From the NCBI RefSeq assembly GCF_026343955.1, contig NZ_JAPKNI010000002.1, positions 186,001 through 250,000 of the forward strand: a DNA stretch of 64,000 nt. Direction: 5' to 3'. Both the position numbers and the translations under genes were made by a program. Below are positions 3,668-13,411 of the stretch, in pieces (position 1 is the stretch's first letter; each line of letters opens with the position of its first letter). The notes under the pieces are model-generated. The model did no database searches and had not been told where the DNA came from. It saw only the letters and a list, made by a program, of their open reading frames with translations. This DNA is from Kaistia defluvii. GTDB taxonomy: Bacteria > Pseudomonadota > Alphaproteobacteria > Rhizobiales > Kaistiaceae.

Positions 3668-4018
3668 TTATGCTCCTTCATGCAGCGGAGCTTCGCCGCG
3701 AACCAGCGCCGCCCCCTTTTCGCCGATCATGATCGCGGGAGCGTTGGTGTTGCCACCGTTAAGATACGCCATGATCGAGTTGTCGATGACGTGGATGCCA
3801 TCCATGCCGTCCAGCTTATCTTCCGGATCGACTACCGCATCCGCGCCCGCGCCCATCCGGCACGTCCCGGCCGGATGATAGTCGACCGATCCATATTGCC
3901 GGACGTAGGACAGGATCTGTTCGTCGGTCCGCAATTCGGCCGGGGGGAAGCGAGGGTCGGCTCTATCTCGAGCGCGTGAAGGCGGAAAGCCGGATGTCGG
4001 CTCCGACGCTTCCTGCAA
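3668..4018 (-). pseudogene. GMC-family oxidoreductase, C-terminal remnant
   Basis: About the last 95 codons of a glucose-methanol-choline oxidoreductase survive, ending in TAA at 3668-3670. Recognisable parts are SVDYHPAGTCRMG (with the active-site His region), IHVIDNSIMAYLNGGNTNAPA and IMIGEKGA, the standard end of the FAD-dependent family. A complete protein is over 500 residues. The FAD-binding N-terminus and substrate domain are absent: upstream of about 3966 homology stops and no other frame continues it. The remnant cannot bind FAD. I read it as a truncated gene left by a deletion next to the sugar-hydrolase genes. Confidence 0.8.
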
Positions 4019-4274: not shown

Positions 4275-4697
4275 CTATCCCTGGTCCTGCGCCTTCGGCC
4301 AGCCCATCTCCTCGTCGACCTCATGCACCGGGTCGAGCAGCAGGAGATCCTGCATGTCGCCAAACGACTCCAGCGCCGGAGCGCTCATCGTTGCAGCCTG
4401 CGCGGCGGTGGCGGCAGGTTCGTTCGGAACTGGCGCCTCGGTGGTCGGGCGCATGAGGCCGCAGCTCACCACTTCGTCGGCGAAGCGCGCGATCCCGGCG
4501 GCCAGTTCGATGTTTTCACCGGCCAGTTCGACGAGTGCCTCGACCGAATGGCCGGCCGTCAGATCGTGCCAGAGCACGGCACCGGAATCCTTAATGCTGT
4601 AGTAGATGCCGGTTTCTAGATTGATCGCGACGATCTCGCCGTCGAAATCATCCGCCGAGCACTGGGGCGATGCGAGTTCAAGGTAATGGGCCGACAC
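4275..4697 (-). CDS. PqqD-family protein with long acidic C-terminal tail
   Basis: A 140-residue protein starting at GTG 4697, with AGGA about 9 bases upstream. Residues 15-80 are a PqqD fold (FDGEIVAINLETGIYYSI, SGAVLWHDL). PqqD domains are small winged-helix modules that bind the leader of a ribosomal peptide and present it to modifying enzymes. The family is usually about 90 residues. Here residues 83-140 form an Ala/Pro-rich linker and an acidic block, DMQDLLLLDPVHEVDEE at 114-130, that could dock a partner or act as a substrate. It is the last gene of a minus-strand operon behind two glycosyltransferases. Together with an HprK-like kinase and an NTP_transf_5 protein nearby, it resembles HPr-rel-A type cassettes. 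No separate precursor peptide is visible. Confidence 0.8.
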   Translation of the reverse strand: MSAHYLELASPQCSADDFDGEIVAINLETGIYYSIKDSGAVLWHDLTAGHSVEALVELAGENIELAAGIARFADEVVSCGLMRPTTEAPVPNEPAATAAQAATMSAPALESFGDMQDLLLLDPVHEVDEEMGWPKAQDQG

Positions 4698-4740
4698 GAG
4701 AATGTCCTAGTGATGGGAGTGGTGGAATGGGAGCGCGCGC

Positions 4741-5478
4741 TCATTCTGAAAGAGCGGCGTCCCGCAGGGGCAGAAAGTCGCGTTCGGGTGGAATCGTCGC
4801 CAACTCCATCCCGGTCTCATCGACGAGATAGTCGTAGCCCTGGGCCTGGTAGCGATTGTCGGGATCCAGGGTGACATAGCGCTGGTGGCGCGCCTGGCGG
4901 TCTTCGGCGCGTATCATGCGCAGGTGATAGAGATTGTGCGGCAGTTGGGCGCCGACGCTTGCCAGGCGCGTGACGATATCGAGCGGCATCCAGTAGCGGT
5001 GGAGCGGGCGCGGATCGAATTTGGTGTGGCGAGGGTCGTTCCGGAACAGGCAGTAGCGCATCTTGCGGCCCCAGATGCCGTCCTTCCGGTAGTGCGCCCG
5101 GTCATCCCACAGCTCGCGGAACCGCAGCGAATAGGCCTCGATACCCTTCGTTTCGGCATCATCGAGAATTTGGCCGATGTCGCCAGCGAACCGTTCCTCC
5201 AGCCGCTCGTCGGCGTCGACGCAGAGAATCCATTCGGCGCCATGCTGGCGGGCCGCCTTGATGAGGGCCATCTGGTTGCCGCGCTCGTTCCATGGCTGCC
5301 CCACGGGATTGCGGATGAGCTGGATCAGTTTTGGGTGCCCGGCGAGGATCTCCGCGGTGGCATCCTCGGAGCCATCATCCAGCGCGAGGACGCCGTCGAC
5401 GGCCGGGGCGACATTCTCGAGCCAGCCGGGCAGGAAACGTTGCTCGTTGCGGGCCTGCAGCAGAACCACCAGCCGCAT
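4741..5478 (-). CDS. Glycosyltransferase family 2
   Basis: A 245-residue GT-A fold protein. The N-terminus VVLLQARNEQRFLPGWL and ALDDGSEDATAEIL form the nucleotide-sugar binding part, and CVDADERLEE carries the metal-binding DxD. Length is short for the family and there is no membrane segment, so it probably works at the inner face of the membrane on a lipid- or protein-linked acceptor. The ATG at 5478 overlaps the stop of the upstream glycosyltransferase (TGATG), which implies translational coupling; the frame stays open further upstream but that part is out of register with the family. The PqqD gene follows after 43 bases. Donor and acceptor sugars cannot be read from the sequence. Confidence 0.85.
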   Translation of the reverse strand: MRLVVLLQARNEQRFLPGWLENVAPAVDGVLALDDGSEDATAEILAGHPKLIQLIRNPVGQPWNERGNQMALIKAARQHGAEWILCVDADERLEERFAGDIGQILDDAETKGIEAYSLRFRELWDDRAHYRKDGIWGRKMRYCLFRNDPRHTKFDPRPLHRYWMPLDIVTRLASVGAQLPHNLYHLRMIRAEDRQARHQRYVTLDPDNRYQAQGYDYLVDETGMELATIPPERDFLPLRDAALSE

Positions 5479-6170
5479 CAGTTGGCCTTCGCGCTGCGTC
5501 GGCGGTCCAGCAGCGCCTTCAGCACGGGCGTGTAGCTTTTCTCGCGCAGGGCCCTGGTGCTCTGGTTGTCGAGATGGACGCGGCGTCGAGACAGGACGGC
5601 GTCGAGCATGATCACCTCGGCGGCGCCATCGCGCGCCCTGCCATACCAATCGAGGAATTCGCCGACCGTGAAGCTTTCGTTCAGCGGGCCGATGGCGCGA
5701 AACGTATCGAGTCGGGTCAGCAGCGTACCGGCCGAAAAGGCGGGCATCGGCTCTGGCGGACACACCAGGCCTGCCGCCTGGACCGGCGTCAGTTCGGGCG
5801 AAACGAAGTGCTGCATATGGCCGAAGACAAGCCGGTTCGGCGCGTCCTGCAGCGCCTGGTGCTGCCACGCGAGCTTGTCCGGGGACCAGATATCGTCCGC
5901 GCTGAGAAACGCGATGCAATCGCCGCTGGCGATACGGGTCCCGTGGTTGAGCGCCGCGGCGACGCCCGCATTGGCCTGACGGACATAGGTCACGCCTTGG
6001 ATGCTGCGGGCGACGTTTCCGGTGCCGTCGCTTGACCCGTCATCGATGACGAGGATCTCGGCGGCAGGCGCTGTCTGTTCGAGGATGCTCGCCACGGCTT
6101 CGGCGAGATAGGCCTCGGCGTTGAAGGCGGGGATCACGACACTGACCCTTCTGCTGGTGGTGCTCGTCAT
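5478..6170 (-). CDS. Glycosyltransferase family 2
   Basis: A 230-residue enzyme of the GT-A superfamily. It starts with RRVSVVIPAFNAEAYL and ILVIDDGSSDGTGNVA, has FLSADDIWSPDKL in the DxD position, and contains GEFLDWYGRARDGA near the acceptor site. The ATG at 6170 is preferred because the conserved strand begins a few residues later; an upstream ATG at 6197 would add nine unconserved residues. The 3' end shares one base with the next glycosyltransferase start, and a gap of about 100 bases separates it from the unknown gene upstream. It probably adds a sugar to a surface glycan or glycoconjugate. Confidence 0.85.
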   Translation of the reverse strand: MTSTTSRRVSVVIPAFNAEAYLAEAVASILEQTAPAAEILVIDDGSSDGTGNVARSIQGVTYVRQANAGVAAALNHGTRIASGDCIAFLSADDIWSPDKLAWQHQALQDAPNRLVFGHMQHFVSPELTPVQAAGLVCPPEPMPAFSAGTLLTRLDTFRAIGPLNESFTVGEFLDWYGRARDGAAEVIMLDAVLSRRRVHLDNQSTRALREKSYTPVLKALLDRRRSAKAN

Positions 6171-6269
6171 GTTCCCCAAACTGTTCCGATACAGCATTAC
6201 CTAAGGTCGAATACCTTACTGCCTGTCTCCATTTCGTAGGGCAAGGGCGGGTAGGTGAAAAGCGGGATT

Positions 6270-7199
6270 TCACCAGCGGGTAAATTTCGGAGGGCAGAGA
6301 TCGAGCAGGGCATTGCCGGTTCGGGTGCTTCGGAGCGCCTCGTAAAGCGCCCGAGGCGTGAAATCCTGCGGGGCCCGGGCCAGGTAGGGTTTGAGGACAC
6401 TCGCCCGCAGCGCGGTGAAGTCGTCCAGGGTCGCGTCTGCGACGAGCCCTCGCAGCGGATAGGCGACGATATCGTCGGGCAAAACGTCCAGACCGGCGGC
6501 AACGGCAAAGTGCCGGGCGGCATGACAGCGGATATTCAGCGTGAACAGCACCTGCATGACCCAGGAGAGCTGCGACATGCTGATCGGGTCCGCCTGATGG
6601 AAAGGGTGCAGATCCTTCAGCAAGTATCGTCCCGCGCTGTCGCGGATCTGGCCGCAATAGCCGATGAGGTCGTGTTCGACGGCAAGCTGCAGCATCGCAG
6701 AGGTCAGGCGGATATTGGCCTCGCCATAGTCTTCGCCGGGGATGAGACCGGACTTCCAGTCGCGGTGCCATTCGAAGATGGAGAACCACGAGACGTGCGT
6801 CTCCGTGTCGATCCTGCCAAAGCCCAGGCATGGGACGACGGGGACACCCCGTTCGGCCAGAAGTCGGCTGACATGGAATTCGGTCGATGCCTGCTGAAAG
6901 GAAGCGCCTCCCAGGAAGGCATTGTCGTGGCCAGACGCCACGTCCTCCATGACCCGCCCGTCAAAATCGAAGCGCCTTGCGGCTGGTCCCGTCTTGCTGA
7001 ACACGCCGAAACGCACGGTGCCGCCATGGAGCCCCGCGCCCTTGATCTTGAGGGCGAAGCCGCGTTTCTCCGGGTGCGGCAGCTGGATGGAGCGACTGCC
7101 GTCGAGGATGCCGATCCGCTTGTCCGACTGAAACCATGCGTGAATTCGTCTGCAGACCGCATCGCTGGCGTGACGGACTTCAATGTTCTTGATCTTCAT
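6270..7199 (-). CDS. Unrecognised protein, possible degenerate kinase-like fold
   Basis: A 309-residue protein I cannot assign to a family. The stretch ALKIKGAGLHGG, then EFHVSRLLAERGVPVVPCLGFG, recalls the KGAG and Glu-containing helix C of SelO/YdiU-type AMPylases and kinase-like folds. A catalytic HRD or DFG-like motif is not apparent, and LLKDLHPFHQAD is the only other candidate. It may be a pseudokinase or a false resemblance. The start is uncertain: ATG 7199 begins the conserved-looking MKIKNIEV, ATG 7211 is also possible, and neither has a clear ribosome binding site. It heads the minus-strand group with two glycosyltransferases and PqqD, and diverges from the HprK-like gene. That placement suggests work in the same modification system. 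Confidence 0.55.
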   Translation of the reverse strand: MKIKNIEVRHASDAVCRRIHAWFQSDKRIGILDGSRSIQLPHPEKRGFALKIKGAGLHGGTVRFGVFSKTGPAARRFDFDGRVMEDVASGHDNAFLGGASFQQASTEFHVSRLLAERGVPVVPCLGFGRIDTETHVSWFSIFEWHRDWKSGLIPGEDYGEANIRLTSAMLQLAVEHDLIGYCGQIRDSAGRYLLKDLHPFHQADPISMSQLSWVMQVLFTLNIRCHAARHFAVAAGLDVLPDDIVAYPLRGLVADATLDDFTALRASVLKPYLARAPQDFTPRALYEALRSTRTGNALLDLCPPKFTRW

Positions 7200-7322
7200 G
7201 AACGGCAGCATGCTAAGGCTTGGATTGTCCGGTGTCGCGAGGCGAAGAGCTAGACAGCAAACGGTCTCGCGCTTCAACTGCCACGAGAATATGCCGGCGC
7301 GCCGGATGGGAGATATCAAGAC

Positions 7323-8414
7323 ATGGAGACCAAGGCCGATCAGGGAGCCGGCGTGGATCGTTGCAATCTGGTCGATTGGATGCGCCAGGTGATCCGCGAG
7401 CTTGAAGCGACGCCGCGTGCGCTTTTCACCACCCATCGCATCACGCCGGCGGGCCTCAACATCGAAACGCATTTCGATGATCCCGATTTCGCCGCGGCCT
7501 ATGCAGGCCGGCTCCGCGATGTCGAGGTGGAGGGGATGCCGGCCGACCGTCTCTATGTGCTGACCGGCAAGGCGGCGGCGTTTCAGGCTGTGCCGGCATG
7601 GCGGGATGCCGAATTTCCACCGCCTGCGTTTCACGCCATGATCAGGGCCGCCGGCCTGCGAGCGGCCTATCCCTTCCAGGCTCGTGTCTGGCGCTTCTTC
7701 GACCCCCGATCCCGGGTCGGCGTGCAATGGACGGCCAGTCCCGACGACCTGCCGCCGTGGGAGGGTTCGGCACCGCTTCGGCAGCATCTGCACTGGCTGT
7801 TGGACGAGAGCGGCCTGCGCCTGGCTCATGCCGCGACGCTTGGCTGGCGGGATCGTGGCGTCGTGCTGTTCGGCAAGGGCGGCGCTGGAAAGTCCGGCAC
7901 CACGCTTGCCGGGCTCGCGGCGGGGCTTTCAACGGTGGGAGACGACTATGTCGCTCTCGCCGGTTCCCCCGGACCGGTGGCGCGCCCGCTCTATCGCGTG
8001 CTCAAGCAGGACCGGGCAGGGCTGGCGCGCACCCCGGAACTCGATGCGAAAACGGCGCATTTGGTTGACAATTGGCGTGGCAAGGTCGAGTTCGACCCGG
8101 ATCAGTTCTTCCGAGGCGCAACCGTCGATAAAATGGACCTGCGCGCTGCCATCCTGCCGCGTATCGCGCATGCGAGCCGGCCGGCCATCGTGGCGGCCCG
8201 GCCCCAGGCGCTGATGCTGGCGCTGATGAGTTCGAACCTGCACCAGTTCGCTGGCGAAGCGGATGACGGCATGTCGTTTTTTGCACGGCTTCTGGCGTGC
8301 CTGCCCTGTTTCGAGATGGAGCTCTCCGACGACGCGGCTGCGAACGGGCGTGTGCTGCGCGACTTCATCGCGGCATTGCCGGCTCAGTTCGATGCACGAG
8401 AGCTGGTTTCGTAA
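7323..8414 (+). CDS. HprK-related P-loop kinase
   Basis: A 363-residue protein with a Walker A motif GKGGAGKSGTT at 184-194 and GDDYVAL at 206-212, the arrangement seen in the C-terminal kinase domain of HPr kinase/phosphorylase relatives. The N-terminal 170 residues are unlike the HPr kinase N-domain. Relatives in other clusters phosphorylate a serine of a small protein or a lasso peptide C-terminus; that is family knowledge, and the substrate here is unknown. GGGAG lies about 10 bases before the ATG. It diverges from the unknown gene at 7199. Its last 31 bases overlap the end of the convergent glycosyltransferase gene. The nearby PqqD and NTP_transf_5 genes support a peptide- or glycan-modifying cassette. 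Confidence 0.78.
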   Translation: METKADQGAGVDRCNLVDWMRQVIRELEATPRALFTTHRITPAGLNIETHFDDPDFAAAYAGRLRDVEVEGMPADRLYVLTGKAAAFQAVPAWRDAEFPPPAFHAMIRAAGLRAAYPFQARVWRFFDPRSRVGVQWTASPDDLPPWEGSAPLRQHLHWLLDESGLRLAHAATLGWRDRGVVLFGKGGAGKSGTTLAGLAAGLSTVGDDYVALAGSPGPVARPLYRVLKQDRAGLARTPELDAKTAHLVDNWRGKVEFDPDQFFRGATVDKMDLRAAILPRIAHASRPAIVAARPQALMLALMSSNLHQFAGEADDGMSFFARLLACLPCFEMELSDDAAANGRVLRDFIAALPAQFDARELVS

Positions 8415-10261
8415 AGCGCATCGAGCCGCGGGCGGATCGGCGCCGCGGCTGGATCGCGCGCCATCGCATCGAATGCCGCGAGTTCGAAGGCGGCGGGATC
8501 GCCGATGGCTTCTGCCGCCCGCGCGAGTCGATCATGGACGAGAAATGCCGAGGGCAGGCTGAAGGTCGCGATTTCGCCGAGCCGCCATGCCTGCTCGATC
8601 AGTTTCCGCTCAATCAGCCAGTCGGCCATCCCGGCCAGCCTCTCGTCGTGAAAGGCCGACTGCCACATTGCGATGTCCAGATGGGCGGCGATGTCCCGAT
8701 GGGCGCTGGCGCTCGCATTGGCACCGTTCCCGCCGCTCGCGCGCAGGAGATCAACCAGTTCAAGGCGAATTGCCAGGTTCGCAGGATCCGCCTGCAGTGC
8801 CCTTTCGGCCTTGCGGAGCGCTGACCGAATGGCGCCCCCGGATCGCCACCGGCGACTTTGCCGGTGCAAGCGTTGGGCGCGGCGGATCGAGAGAAGTCCG
8901 AAATAGTTTCCGGCGCCATAGGCGAGCGAGGCAGGCCAGACGAGCTTCCCGATGGCAGCCTGCCGCGTCGGTTCCAGTTTCAGGAACGCGTCGGCGATGC
9001 GCAGCGCTGTCATGGCGCGCTGACGCGCGGCGGCGAGCAGGTCACCGAGGACCGCAGCGCGTTTTGACGATGGCTGGGTCCGCGCCGGCTGATAGCGGGC
9101 CGCCCGGCGGCCTCGGCCGAACATGTCGCGCCAGAAGCGCAGCCGGCCTTGCGGGCCGCCATGCTCGGTCTGCACCTGCGGAACCCAGGCTGGGTGAATG
9201 TCCCTGCCGAGCCGTCTGGCCAGATCCGTGTCCTCGCTGACCCTCAACGTCGAATTGAAATAGCCGAATTCGGCGAAGACCTGCCGATCATAGGACGCGC
9301 CGTATCGAAGCGCCTGCGTAGGCGGTATCTCCGGAGACCGGGCACCGAACAGGCAGAGATGGGCCGCCAGGGCCAGATCGTCATCATGATCCGCGGGGAT
9401 GATCGCAGAGGCGACCGCCCGGGCTCCCCTGTCATGCGCGGCCAGCCGGGTCCGGATCCAGCCGGGCTTGGCCCTGCAGTCACCGGCGAGGAAAGCTATG
9501 TAGGGGGCGCTGCTCGCGTCGATGCCGATATTGCGCGCCGCCCCGGCATAGAGCGGCGCCTGGATATCGATGAGGCGAATGCGGGCTGCGCAGGATTGCA
9601 GCAGTGCCGCGGGGTCCCCGCCGCCTGAGTTGACGACGACAATTTCGGCCGGCTCGTCCTGTTCGAGCAGGGACTCGACGGCATGGATCAGGCCCGGTTG
9701 GGCCCGAAAGCCGATCACGATGACGGCCATCGCCGCGGTCGCGATGCTGTCGCCCTCCTGCGATGAACCGTCGCCCATGCACCATCGACGCCAGAGGCCG
9801 AAATCCGACCCCGTCGTGGAAGCGGTCACGCGCTTCTCCAGGGTCTGGATGCGGGCATTGTCGGGCGCCTGCGCGACCAGCGTCGTGGCAAGCTCTGCCG
9901 CTTCGAGGGGTTGGCCCCGGTTCAGAAGAACGTCGCAGAGCTTATAGCGAGGATAGATACGTTCCGGCGCCGCCGCCATCATGCGGCGATAGAGCCGTTC
10001 CGATTCGCCGTTGCGAGCTCCGACGCGCTCGAGGATGCGCCCCGCCAGCGCGAGGCTATGCAGGTCGGCGGCCTCGGAGTCCGTGATCTCGCAGGCGAGA
10101 TCAAATGCCGCCTGCCTCTTTCCCTTGCGCAGGCTGGCAAGCATGCGCAGGGCGATATCGCGGCAGGGCGCGTGCTCCGTTGACGCATGCAGGGCCGCTT
10201 CAGAATGGTTCGGCAAGGTAGGATCGCTTGTTCTAGGGGGGCGACGAATCAATCCGTTCAT
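8384..10261 (-). CDS. Large family-2 glycosyltransferase with helical-repeat flanks
   Basis: A 625-residue protein in three parts. Residues about 30-150 are TPR-like helical repeats (LALAGRILERVGARNGESER, APERIYPRYKLCDVLLNRG). Residues about 175-400 are a GT-A glycosyltransferase (VIVIGFRAQPGLIHAVESLL, VVVNSGGGDPAALL, AGAARNIGIDASSAPYIAFL, FNSTLRVSEDTDLARRL). The rest is a further helical region. By analogy the repeats recruit a protein partner or acceptor. The gene stands alone on the minus strand between the HprK-like gene and the polysaccharide deacetylase; its 3' end overlaps the former by 31 bases. No membrane segments are evident. The ATG at 10261 lacks a clear Shine-Dalgarno. Confidence 0.82.
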   Translation of the reverse strand: MNGLIRRPPRTSDPTLPNHSEAALHASTEHAPCRDIALRMLASLRKGKRQAAFDLACEITDSEAADLHSLALAGRILERVGARNGESERLYRRMMAAAPERIYPRYKLCDVLLNRGQPLEAAELATTLVAQAPDNARIQTLEKRVTASTTGSDFGLWRRWCMGDGSSQEGDSIATAAMAVIVIGFRAQPGLIHAVESLLEQDEPAEIVVVNSGGGDPAALLQSCAARIRLIDIQAPLYAGAARNIGIDASSAPYIAFLAGDCRAKPGWIRTRLAAHDRGARAVASAIIPADHDDDLALAAHLCLFGARSPEIPPTQALRYGASYDRQVFAEFGYFNSTLRVSEDTDLARRLGRDIHPAWVPQVQTEHGGPQGRLRFWRDMFGRGRRAARYQPARTQPSSKRAAVLGDLLAAARQRAMTALRIADAFLKLEPTRQAAIGKLVWPASLAYGAGNYFGLLSIRRAQRLHRQSRRWRSGGAIRSALRKAERALQADPANLAIRLELVDLLRASGGNGANASASAHRDIAAHLDIAMWQSAFHDERLAGMADWLIERKLIEQAWRLGEIATFSLPSAFLVHDRLARAAEAIGDPAAFELAAFDAMARDPAAAPIRPRLDALYETSSRASN

Positions 10262-10353
10262 ATCGGCCGGTCCGACAGCCGTAGTTCTGGATCGCGCGCA
10301 TCGCGCATGTCACGATGCCGCAGAGCTGCGCCAGGGGGAAGGTCGAACCGCAC

Positions 10354-11301
10354 GTGACTGAGCAATATGTGCTGATTTCGTTCGATGGCTGCGTCGACAT
10401 CGAGAGCTGGCGCGCCTGGACGGCTTTCGCCGACAAGCATCCCCGTCTTCGGCTCACATTCTTTGTCAGCGGGACCTGTTTCCTCACAGAGGAGCGTCGC
10501 ACCCTCTACCAGGGTCCGGGCAGCGAACCCGGCACGGCCAGGATCCGGTTTGGCGGAACGCAACCCGAGCTGGTCGAGCGCGTCGCCTGCATGAACGCGC
10601 TCTTCCGATCGGGGCACGAAATCGCCTCGCATGCCGTCGGGCATCTGGATGGCGCATCCTGGAGCCCGGCCGAGTGGCTTGCCGAATTCGAGACCTACGA
10701 CCGGCTGCTCGAGGGCTTTGCAGCCAATAATGGTCTCGGCGCCGAGGATGGCCTCGCTTTCGGCCCGAGCGATATCCAGGGGTTTCGCGCGCCCTTCCTG
10801 AGCATAGGCCCGGGGCTCGATGCCGCGCTTGCCGCGCGTCAATACCGCTATGATGCCAGCATGGCCGGCCGGGCCGGCGATTGGCCGATGAAGAACCGTG
10901 ACGGGATCTGGAAGTTCAAGCTGGCCAGTATCCCGCTGAGGGGCTACCGGCGGACGCCGCTTTCGATGGACTACAATCTCTTCATCGTGCAGTCCCAGGA
11001 AAATCCTGAAATCTTCGAGGATCTGGAGGATCTGGAGGAACGCGTGGTGGAGGCGTACCTCCAGTACTTCAAGAGAAACTATGTCACGGATCGCGCTCCC
11101 CTCCACATCGGCCATCACTTCACGAACTATCGCGGGCTGGTTTACCGCAAGGCCCTGATGCGGTTCATCGAGAGTGTCATCGACCGGCCGGACGTGACGT
11201 TCTGCACCTATGCTCAGCTTTCCGACGATCTTGACCGCGTTGGATCGCCGCCTCGCGGCGCGGTGATGCGCGGCGCCTCGTTCGCCCAGGCAGGCCGGTG
11301 A
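10354..11301 (+). CDS. Polysaccharide deacetylase (NodB-type, CE4)
   Basis: A 315-residue protein. The NodB elements are LISFDGCVD (D11 and nearby), FFVSG, GHEIASHAVGH with H93 and H97 as metal ligands, and GFRAPFL. Family members remove N- or O-acetyl groups from chitin-like, peptidoglycan or surface polysaccharides. No signal peptide is seen, so the substrate may be an intracellular glycan intermediate. I chose GTG 10354 because the conserved strand starts at once and GGGGGAAGG lies upstream; ATG 10315 would add 13 unconserved residues. It overlaps the nucleotidyltransferase gene by four bases (GTGA), so the two are translated together. Confidence 0.82.
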   Translation: MTEQYVLISFDGCVDIESWRAWTAFADKHPRLRLTFFVSGTCFLTEERRTLYQGPGSEPGTARIRFGGTQPELVERVACMNALFRSGHEIASHAVGHLDGASWSPAEWLAEFETYDRLLEGFAANNGLGAEDGLAFGPSDIQGFRAPFLSIGPGLDAALAARQYRYDASMAGRAGDWPMKNRDGIWKFKLASIPLRGYRRTPLSMDYNLFIVQSQENPEIFEDLEDLEERVVEAYLQYFKRNYVTDRAPLHIGHHFTNYRGLVYRKALMRFIESVIDRPDVTFCTYAQLSDDLDRVGSPPRGAVMRGASFAQAGR

Positions 11302-12743
11302 TCGCAACCCAGCCGCCAAAGAGCTGGCCGACCGGGCGCGTGGCGCTGCTGGTGCGCGCAGCGCTTTGTCCGTCGGCCGAGGCCGCTCGATCCTGGCAGG
11401 ACTGGAAAGCCAGCCGGAACTTCGATGACATCACGTGGGAGGAGATGCGGCTTCTGGTGCCCGTGGCGGCGCGCCTGGCGGAGATCGATCCCCGCTCGCC
11501 GCTTCGGCCCCGCATCGATGGACTGGCGAAGCAGATCTGGACGCGAACCCAGATCAGGCTGCGCGAATCGTGCCAGGTTTTCGATGGCCTCAACGAGGCG
11601 GGCGTGCCCTTCATCGTGTTCAAGGGCGGTGCGCAATATGCCGAAGGCCTGGCGGTTTCCCCCCGCCGGGTCATGGGCGATATCGATATTCTGATCCAGA
11701 GGCGTGATGTCGTCCCGGCGCTGGATGCCCTCGAGGCCAATGGATGGCGGGCCGTGGGCGGCGAGTCGTTCGCATTGCTGCGGCAGTCCCTTCCGGGCCG
11801 GTTGCGAGTGAATTTCAGGAAAGGCCAGCATGGCGAGATCGATCTCCATGTCAGCCCCTTCCATTTCGCCCGCAGCACCCCGGTCCTCGAGGCGGCGCTC
11901 TGGGCCCGGGCGAAGCCTGCCAATCTGGTGCTTCGGCCCGTTCTGGTGCCCGACCCCACGGATTCGATGCTGTTGATGATGGCGCACGGGGTCGAAGGCG
12001 GTGGGGGCGACTGGGCGATCGACGCGGCCACGCGCATGGCCCGGCAGCCGATCGATTGGGACCGCCTCGTCGCTACGGCAGAACAACGATGCCTCGTGCC
12101 CGGCATCCGCGACGGGATCGCCTATCTTATCCAGGGTGTCGGCCTCGCCGTGCCGGAGCACGTTCCGGCCAGGCTGGCCAGGGCGCGGGTATCGGCGACC
12201 GAACGGCTCAAGCACTGGTCCAATACCCGCCACCCGGACGACCGTAGCCGCATCGAAAATCTGGTGGATGGGCTCGTCGATCGCATCCTGCGTCGTCGGG
12301 GCTTCGACCTGGCGGTCAAGAATGCGAGACTGGTAAGGGCGATGCGGACGCCCGGCGTCTGGATGAACCGGCGCCGCGGCTACGACACCGCCCCCTCCGC
12401 TGCGGCGTTCGATCATCACCTGTCCCTGCGCGATGTGCAGGGCAATGCCACGCTGTTCTTCCGGGTGCGGATGGATCCGCCGGAGAACCCGCGCCGCTTT
12501 CTCTTCGAGGTCAGTGTCGATGGCGTGGCCATCGGCCAGTTGAGGACCCGCGTCGTCGGCGGTCGCTCGCGCGAGCCGGTCGATCGCCTCTTTCGGCTGC
12601 CTCTGCCGGACGGCAGGCGCGGCAGCCTGCAAGTCGTCATCTCGGCCAGCCCGCTCAAGCTGGTCCGACCCGACGCGACGGCTGCCGAGATCGCCCGCTT
12701 CTCCGCCGCGCCGTTCCGCATTGTTGGCATCTGGACGGCGTGA
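11298..12743 (+). CDS. NTP_transf_5 family nucleotidyltransferase
   Basis: A 481-residue protein with a GTG start overlapping the deacetylase stop. Residues 105-135 carry the family signature: FIVFKGGAQY, then RRVMGDIDILI with D128 and D130 as the metal-binding pair, and EIDLH at 180-184 as the third acidic position. The family is annotated as a nucleotidyltransferase and is often found with PqqD proteins and HprK-like kinases, including in lasso peptide clusters. The C-terminal region, about residues 395-480, looks like a separate beta-rich domain. It is the last gene of the cassette. The reaction presumably transfers an NMP to a peptide, lipid or sugar; this is inferred. Confidence 0.82.
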   Translation: MIATQPPKSWPTGRVALLVRAALCPSAEAARSWQDWKASRNFDDITWEEMRLLVPVAARLAEIDPRSPLRPRIDGLAKQIWTRTQIRLRESCQVFDGLNEAGVPFIVFKGGAQYAEGLAVSPRRVMGDIDILIQRRDVVPALDALEANGWRAVGGESFALLRQSLPGRLRVNFRKGQHGEIDLHVSPFHFARSTPVLEAALWARAKPANLVLRPVLVPDPTDSMLLMMAHGVEGGGGDWAIDAATRMARQPIDWDRLVATAEQRCLVPGIRDGIAYLIQGVGLAVPEHVPARLARARVSATERLKHWSNTRHPDDRSRIENLVDGLVDRILRRRGFDLAVKNARLVRAMRTPGVWMNRRRGYDTAPSAAAFDHHLSLRDVQGNATLFFRVRMDPPENPRRFLFEVSVDGVAIGQLRTRVVGGRSREPVDRLFRLPLPDGRRGSLQVVISASPLKLVRPDATAAEIARFSAAPFRIVGIWTA

Positions 12744-12985
12744 GGTCCGATTCAGCGACGCTCGACAGCCGTCATCGCAGGAGATGAGCCGGTATCGAGA
12801 CGGTCGAAGGTGGATAGGGCAACGTCATCCTTCGCGGCGACGACGCGAAAAGCTGCTCTTCCGCTCCCGGTCCCGGCTCAGCCGCGGCTTTGACACCTGC
12901 TGCGTGATGGAAGCGTTGCCGAGGTCCGATGGATATTCCGGCCAACACGGACGGATCCGCGTTGGCCGGCAGGGAGGTTTCGCGA

Positions 12986-13411
12986 CTACTCGACGATGCG
13001 GAGTTCGACGGTGCGGCTCTGGTCGAACCAGGTCTCGAGACCGGTCACCTTGAGCTCGAGGCTGCCCTCGACCACTTCGCCGATATAGGAGATCGGCAGC
13101 GGCTCCTCCGCCGTGTCGTCGCCATAGACGACGCAGAACTGCTGGCGAGGGCTGTAGAAGCAGACCGACCCGGCGCCGCTGCCATACTTGGCGCGGCGTT
13201 CGCGACCGACATCCTCGGTCAGGTACTTGTTCTCCCACGGCGCGACGATCGGCAGCGTGAAGAACACCATGTCGCCGATCAGCTTGCCATGCTGCAGCAT
13301 GGTGGTCATCGGCAGCTTCTTGCGGAACTCCTCGGCGAGCTTGGGAACCTTGTCTTCCCAGACTTCGATGGTGCAGACGTCCTTGCCCGCAACGGCCATC
13401 TTGAGCTTCAT
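12986..13411 (-). CDS. DUF3830 family protein (cyclophilin-like fold)
   Basis: A 141-residue protein, typical of DUF3830: FRKKLPMTTMLQHGKLIGDM, FTLPIVAPWEN, GSVCFYSPRQQFCVVYGDD and PISYIGEVVEG. The fold is a small cyclophilin-like barrel; function is unknown, but the family recurs beside amino acid transport and degradation genes. ATG 13411 is preceded by AAAGGA at about 10 bases; the frame extends further upstream without homology. It is the last gene of the minus-strand amino acid ABC operon, 28 bases after the preceding gene. Confidence 0.8.
   Translation of the reverse strand: MKLKMAVAGKDVCTIEVWEDKVPKLAEEFRKKLPMTTMLQHGKLIGDMVFFTLPIVAPWENKYLTEDVGRERRAKYGSGAGSVCFYSPRQQFCVVYGDDTAEEPLPISYIGEVVEGSLELKVTGLETWFDQSRTVELRIVE

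Follow-up and report, generated by a model that had tools for sequence, protein, structure and literature searches.

Which molecule would be acted on by a group of genes that places a PqqD-type recognition element (RRE) beside a kinase, a nucleotidyltransferase and several glycosyltransferases, and do such genes form a unit in the first place? The question is raised by a block at 4275-12743 of a 64,000-nucleotide stretch of the Kaistia defluvii genome (hereafter the window; genome G000, contig C12), which is filled by eight clean open reading frames (ORFs) with coding-like codon usage. A sequence-only reading had listed these eight genes, and all of them are present where it placed them, as judged from their ORFs, codon usage and family or profile matches. 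The eight genes are a unit rather than mere neighbours and represent a patchily distributed module, the RRE protein of which ends in a near-invariant, leader-like tail. This tail, absent from the sequence-only reading, bears most directly on the question of the substrate.

The tail belongs to the PqqD-type RRE protein (140 aa; 4275..4697, minus strand), a core component of the cassette. Its PF05402 score (23.3 bits) falls just below the cut-off (23.4 bits); the identity of the domain is nevertheless confirmed, since the profile of the protein matches the lasso B1 protein TbiB1 (5v1u) with an E-value of 8.5e-13. In the profile search, the solved structures nearest to the window RRE are the lasso B1 proteins TbiB1 and TfuB1. 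The protein is composed of three parts on the minus strand, namely the RRE domain (residues 1-84; 4446..4697), with a mean column entropy of 1.84 bits in alignment A1, a variable linker (residues 85-104; 4386..4445; 2.54 bits), and the conserved leader-like tail SAPALESFGDMQDLLLLDPVHEVDEEMGWP (residues 105-134; 4296..4385), where the mean entropy drops to 0.65 bits over residues 122-134. The tail, with the consensus [FY]xDMxxLLxxDP[IV]H[DE]VxxxGWP, is thus better conserved than the RRE domain itself, and the positions invariant across A1 include D114, D122, P123, H125, V127, G132, W133, and P134. The DP[IV]H[DE]V...GWP end is complete in 21 of the 24 distinct tails, with a variant in genome G386. 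When a tail-only profile was run over 318 Alphaproteobacterial genomes, every match was a PqqD protein. The second-copy pair of loci L028 and L037 differs at 19 of 36 tail codons, 17 being identical; 18 of the 19 changes are silent and one alters the amino acid, and the tail is thus under selection as protein.

The same protein is inherited together with its neighbours. In K. terrae all eight genes are present, with order and orientations matching the window, and K. adipata carries seven of the eight, the NodB gene being absent, with order and orientations kept; the flanking genes are different in all three Kaistia that have the block. This form of the block occurs in only 3 of the 14 searched genomes of the genus, including that of the window. 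A minimal core, consisting of the genes for the PqqD protein, the HprK-like kinase, GT2 glycosyltransferases, and mostly also NTP_transf_5, recurs as compact operons with unrelated flanks. The window genome has a second, collinear copy of it (PqqD-HprK-GT2x4-NTP_transf_5; L028), and more copies are found in other Kaistia and Kaistiaceae (L031, L033-L041) and in other Alphaproteobacterial families (L074-L079, L081, L082, L085-L087). A tailed PqqD protein was also seen in G494, a genome that belongs to the phylum but is listed outside the class, although its neighbours were not resolved there. The cyanobacterium Crinalium has a locus (L089) on its plasmid pCRI9333.04 that encodes PqqD, a nucleotidyltransferase, an HPr kinase, an FkbM methyltransferase, and a glycosyltransferase; in the plasmid searches, this was the sole plasmid with the tail.

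Gaps within the collinear core operons are mostly shorter than 60 bp and reach 192 bp at most, and many genes overlap by 4 bp. The pairwise distances of the PqqD, HprK-like, NTP_transf_5, and core GT2 proteins correlate over 17 loci (r = 0.74-0.86, above all 5000 permutations), which is support for co-inheritance and not proof of it, because the species history shared by the loci contributes. It is therefore very improbable that surface-sugar genes merely adjoin the PqqD and HprK-like genes. The mixed strands of the window version and the differing accessory genes among genomes would suit such a chance neighbourhood, but the many independent core loci, the translationally coupled operons, and the correlated protein distances speak against it; chance grouping is dismissed because two further Kaistia keep the gene order and orientations of the block although the flanks differ, and for the core genes it is already refuted. 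The sequence-only reading had itself regarded the genes as mere neighbours in case they did not co-occur in related genomes. Since PqqD, HprK-like, and NTP_transf_5 genes lie within a few kilobases of each other, together with GT2 genes, in most genomes with the HprK-like gene, the linkage it proposed stands.

The tail may indicate what the unit works on. Leaders of lasso peptides carry a YxxPxL motif at positions -17 to -12 (PMC10368454). The related pattern [YF]xxPx[LIV] is present in 10 of the 24 tails, with its distance to the [FYH]xD[ML] anchor constant among them, compared with a mean of 0.035 and a maximum of 2 in shuffled sequences; this count treats related sequences singly and so is not a probability. 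The same offset is seen in a lasso precursor encoded at L084 beside PqqD, lasso-cyclase-like, and HprK-like genes (YEAPELVLVGNVGDLT; compare the L039 tail, YEAPSVERFDDMQELL). When the tails are placed in the register of lasso leaders, their DP[IV]H... end would fall at the expected start of the core peptide.

The HprK-like kinase (363 aa; 7323..8414, plus strand) matches HPr kinase structures in a profile search (E 1.8e-6), while its family matches are weak (Hpr_kinase_C, E 0.017; TIGR04352, 24.4 bits against a cut-off of 200). Its H169, the P-loop K190, D207, and D208 are invariant in 15 sequences and, by position, probably correspond to the His-Lys-Asp-Asp motif of lasso kinases (PMC9266682). 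The NTP_transf_5 nucleotidyltransferase (481 aa; 11298..12743, plus strand; PF14907, 82.4 bits) found no match in the PDB; in the alignment of its family, D128 and D130 are invariant and D182 and H184 nearly so. The third core enzyme, GTb, is a GT2 glycosyltransferase (239 aa; 5478..6197, minus strand; PF00535, 110 bits), and nearly all cassettes carry a GT2 similar to it. In lasso systems, the K protein phosphorylates the precursor, a reaction that the RRE can speed up, as BsfB1 does for BsfK. Pseudomycoidin requires PsmK and PsmN to become phosphorylated and glycosylated, and this K and N pair adds a phosphate and one or two hexoses, N itself being a possible sugar transferase.

We tentatively prefer, at somewhat less than even confidence, to view the cassette as a module for peptide-guided phosphorylation and glycosylation that is akin to the lasso B1-K-N trio and has the leader and the target fused to the RRE. 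Such a module would have been separated from the leader peptidase and the cyclase and joined to GT2 glycosyltransferases, and the PqqD protein would unite the recognition element with the leader. Its RRE would hold its own leader-like tail, or that of a sister molecule, and offer the DP[IV]H[DE]VxxxGWP end to three kinds of enzyme, namely the kinase, NTP_transf_5, and the GT2s; these would build a phospho-sugar or glycan on the PqqD protein or with the PqqD protein as a scaffold. Binding of the tail by the RRE, modification of the tail, the order of steps, and the product are all predicted here from the comparisons above.

Several observations weigh against this proposal. No Ser, Thr, or Tyr is conserved in the tail; for the HprK-like kinases of lasso systems, the reported target is Ser (the C-terminal Ser or Ser3), and a search of the tails for such a target found no conserved Ser or Thr. 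Of the leader motif, the window tail retains no more than PxL, and 14 of the 24 tails lack the full YxxPxL. One clade (L081 and L082) keeps the cassette with a tail that ends in DPPLPAAPR, the IHDV...GWP part being lost. In the AlphaFold2 model of the PqqD protein, built on an alignment of three close sequences, the RRE core reaches a predicted local confidence (pLDDT) of approximately 70-80 in parts and the tail is disordered. The gene content is not uniform either: L077 combines a tailed PqqD with GT2s and has no adjacent HprK gene, L032 has HprK and NTP_transf_5 and no called PqqD, and some cassettes are without NTP_transf_5 next to the other genes. Finally, species phylogeny may account for part of the correlation between the distances.

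Because the tails have no conserved Ser or Thr and one clade has lost the tail end, a docking function is nearly as likely as modification of the tail. As a docking tag, the tail would stay unmodified, and contacts between the RRE and the tail, or between the tail and the kinase or glycosyltransferases, would gather HprK, NTP_transf_5, and the GT2s onto a glycan, a lipid-linked sugar, or a small molecule. This option, which we consider quite plausible yet short of an even chance, fits the missing phosphorylatable residue and the clade that dispenses with part of the tail, as well as the number and kind of glycosyltransferases, which vary while the tail does not. It also fits genomes G023 and G025, in which the NTP_transf_5 gene is part of a large cluster of glycosyltransferase genes that also includes a carbamoyltransferase, and two Kaistia cassettes (L039, 10129-12495; L040, 9937-12312), in which an MsbA-type ABC exporter is fused to the core GT2 in a single chain; these domain fusions suggest that the product is exported. 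By itself, however, docking leaves unexplained why the tail shares its register with lasso leaders and why the peptide-acting K and N families are used. Under either account, the enzymes would act on the tail or be gathered by it. We also note that the tailed-PqqD cassette of G023 (L041) includes, at 11487-13286, a full-length asparagine synthase with a glutamine amidotransferase domain.

A third possibility, which we regard as improbable, is that the RRE delivers a separate precursor peptide, the gene of which lies elsewhere in the genome, and that the tail serves to regulate or block the RRE. According to the literature, discrete RRE proteins do bind leader peptides encoded by separate genes (PMC7470986), and Kaistia has a second RRE cluster accompanied by separate YxxPxL peptides. 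That cluster, however, owns its RRE, kinase, and NTP_transf_5. In addition, the nearly gap-free core operons leave little room for a precursor gene and none was called there, and a search among the small ORFs of the window cassette for a separate precursor or leader-bearing peptide gave no convincing candidate.

The second RRE cluster (L119, at 4901-8062 of G000:C16:220000-234000; also L120, L121, L043, and L042) is found in Kaistia and relatives and is different from the cassette: it consists of a tail-less PqqD, a lasso B2-type peptidase, an HprK-like kinase, and NTP_transf_5, and in some cases short YxxPxL precursor candidates are present (three in L042, one in L120). In G000 and K. terrae (G012), however, no match to a lasso cyclase was found at 1e-20, and the cluster may make phosphorylated linear peptides.

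The preferred view of the cassette as a leader-fused tailoring module can also be set against the named systems. One of the closest is the lasso B1-K-N trio, represented by bsf of Bradymonas and psm of Bacillus pseudomycoides, which has the same discrete PqqD-type RRE, HprK-like kinase, and nucleotidyltransferase, the invariant His-Lys-Asp-Asp of the kinase, and a leader-type motif, which among the cassettes is complete in a subset of the PqqD tails; the lasso-like clusters of Kaistia draw on the same three families. In contrast to lasso clusters, the cassette has no B2 peptidase, cyclase, or separate precursor and adds several GT2s, and unlike a lasso leader, its leader-like sequence is fused to the RRE, with a near-invariant target segment that has no conserved Ser. 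As the sequence-only reading had observed, none of the eight genes encodes a lasso cyclase, a leader peptidase, or a radical SAM enzyme. The only B2 copy of G000 is on a contig other than that of the cassette, G000 has no NF033535 (lasso cyclase) match at 1e-20, and four genomes with the cassette (G005, G013, G014, and G017) have neither a B2 nor a cyclase match. Assignment to lasso clusters was rejected, given that B2 and cyclase are missing from the cassette.

The HPr-rel-A system (TIGR04352/TIGR04353) likewise has a PqqD-like protein, an HprK-related kinase, and a nucleotidyltransferase side by side, and the sequence-only reading had connected the cassette with it. This connection was not supported. 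The kinase score given above is far from the TIGR04352 cut-off, TIGR04353 has no match to the window PqqD at E <= 1, TIGR04352 has none in G000 at 1e-20, and the tail motif is absent from the loci fetched by the TIGR04352 search; with the cut-offs unreached and the fetched loci tail-less, this assignment was rejected as well. At two of these TIGR04352 loci (L106 and L109), the HPr-rel-A PqqD gene, which is tail-less, is preceded by reading frames resembling pilins or secreted proteins, and judging by this arrangement they are possible substrates of the orphan HPr-rel-A system.

Mycofactocin biosynthesis (MftA/MftB/MftF) also combines an RRE, a conserved peptide end, and a GT2 glycosyltransferase. 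The cassette shares these three features, and its tetratricopeptide-containing GT2 protein has MftF as its best NCBIfam match (62 bits, far below the cut-off); unlike mycofactocin, it has no radical SAM enzyme (MftC), its peptide is fused to the RRE, and a kinase and a nucleotidyltransferase are present. Genome mining with RRE-Finder, as far as its account was available to us, reports unusual RRE fusions with sugar enzymes, including an RRE-glycosyltransferase, and describes in that part none that joins an RRE to its own leader-like tail. In the open-access literature, which leaves out most subscription journals, we found nothing beyond lasso peptides that links PqqD, an HprK-like kinase, and glycosyltransferases.

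The remaining genes include those of the protein at 6270-7211, the TPR-GT2 protein, and the NodB-like protein, which are not core and belong to the Kaistia sub-type. The decoration of the cell surface at which the sequence-only reading hinted would be a hypothetical role. GTa (245 aa; 4741..5478, minus strand; PF13704/PF00535) is another sub-type accessory GT2 glycosyltransferase, 86-91% identical to its counterparts in K. adipata and K. terrae. The TPR-GT2 protein (586-625 aa; 8384..10261, minus strand) matches PF00535 and TPR_19, and the family assignment of all three GT2s by Pfam is clear. Most of the family labels given by the sequence-only reading hold, with two reservations. The accessory NodB-like polysaccharide deacetylase (328 aa; 10315..11301, plus strand) is a soft assignment, just under the cut-off (PF01522, 22.0 bits against 23.1), and the label kinase-like for the protein of 309-313 aa at 6270..7211 (minus strand) is backed by no match. 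The latter protein has no Pfam or NCBIfam match and gave only chance matches in a profile search of the PDB; its homologues were found only in three Kaistia and one other genome, which is without the cassette, and its AlphaFold2 model from three aligned close sequences (mean pLDDT 46) is too poor to use. Just outside the cassette, a short ORF at 3668-4018 of the window (minus strand) is a C-terminal piece of a GMC oxidoreductase, probably a remnant at the left edge of the cassette.

New ribosomal peptide pathways are found via RREs by seeking a nearby precursor gene. In the cassette the RRE and the likely leader share a single chain, and such pathways would therefore be scored as precursor-less and passed over. 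RRE-guided tailoring of peptides is known, and we consider it doubtful, though a serious possibility, that the cassette represents a distinct kind of system. Such a system would have recognition element, leader, and target in one protein, and its kinase, nucleotidyltransferase, and glycosyltransferases would yield a conserved phospho-glycosylated tail, serving as a primer, carrier, or cofactor-like product in Proteobacteria and Cyanobacteria, an outcome to which we give a minor share of our confidence. Should the tail prove to be the substrate, the fact that it hardly varies between Proteobacteria and a cyanobacterium would speak for a conserved product and not for a variable antibiotic, and the cassette would offer a compact four-gene system for direct tests of the chemistry of HprK-like kinases and NTP_transf_5 enzymes.

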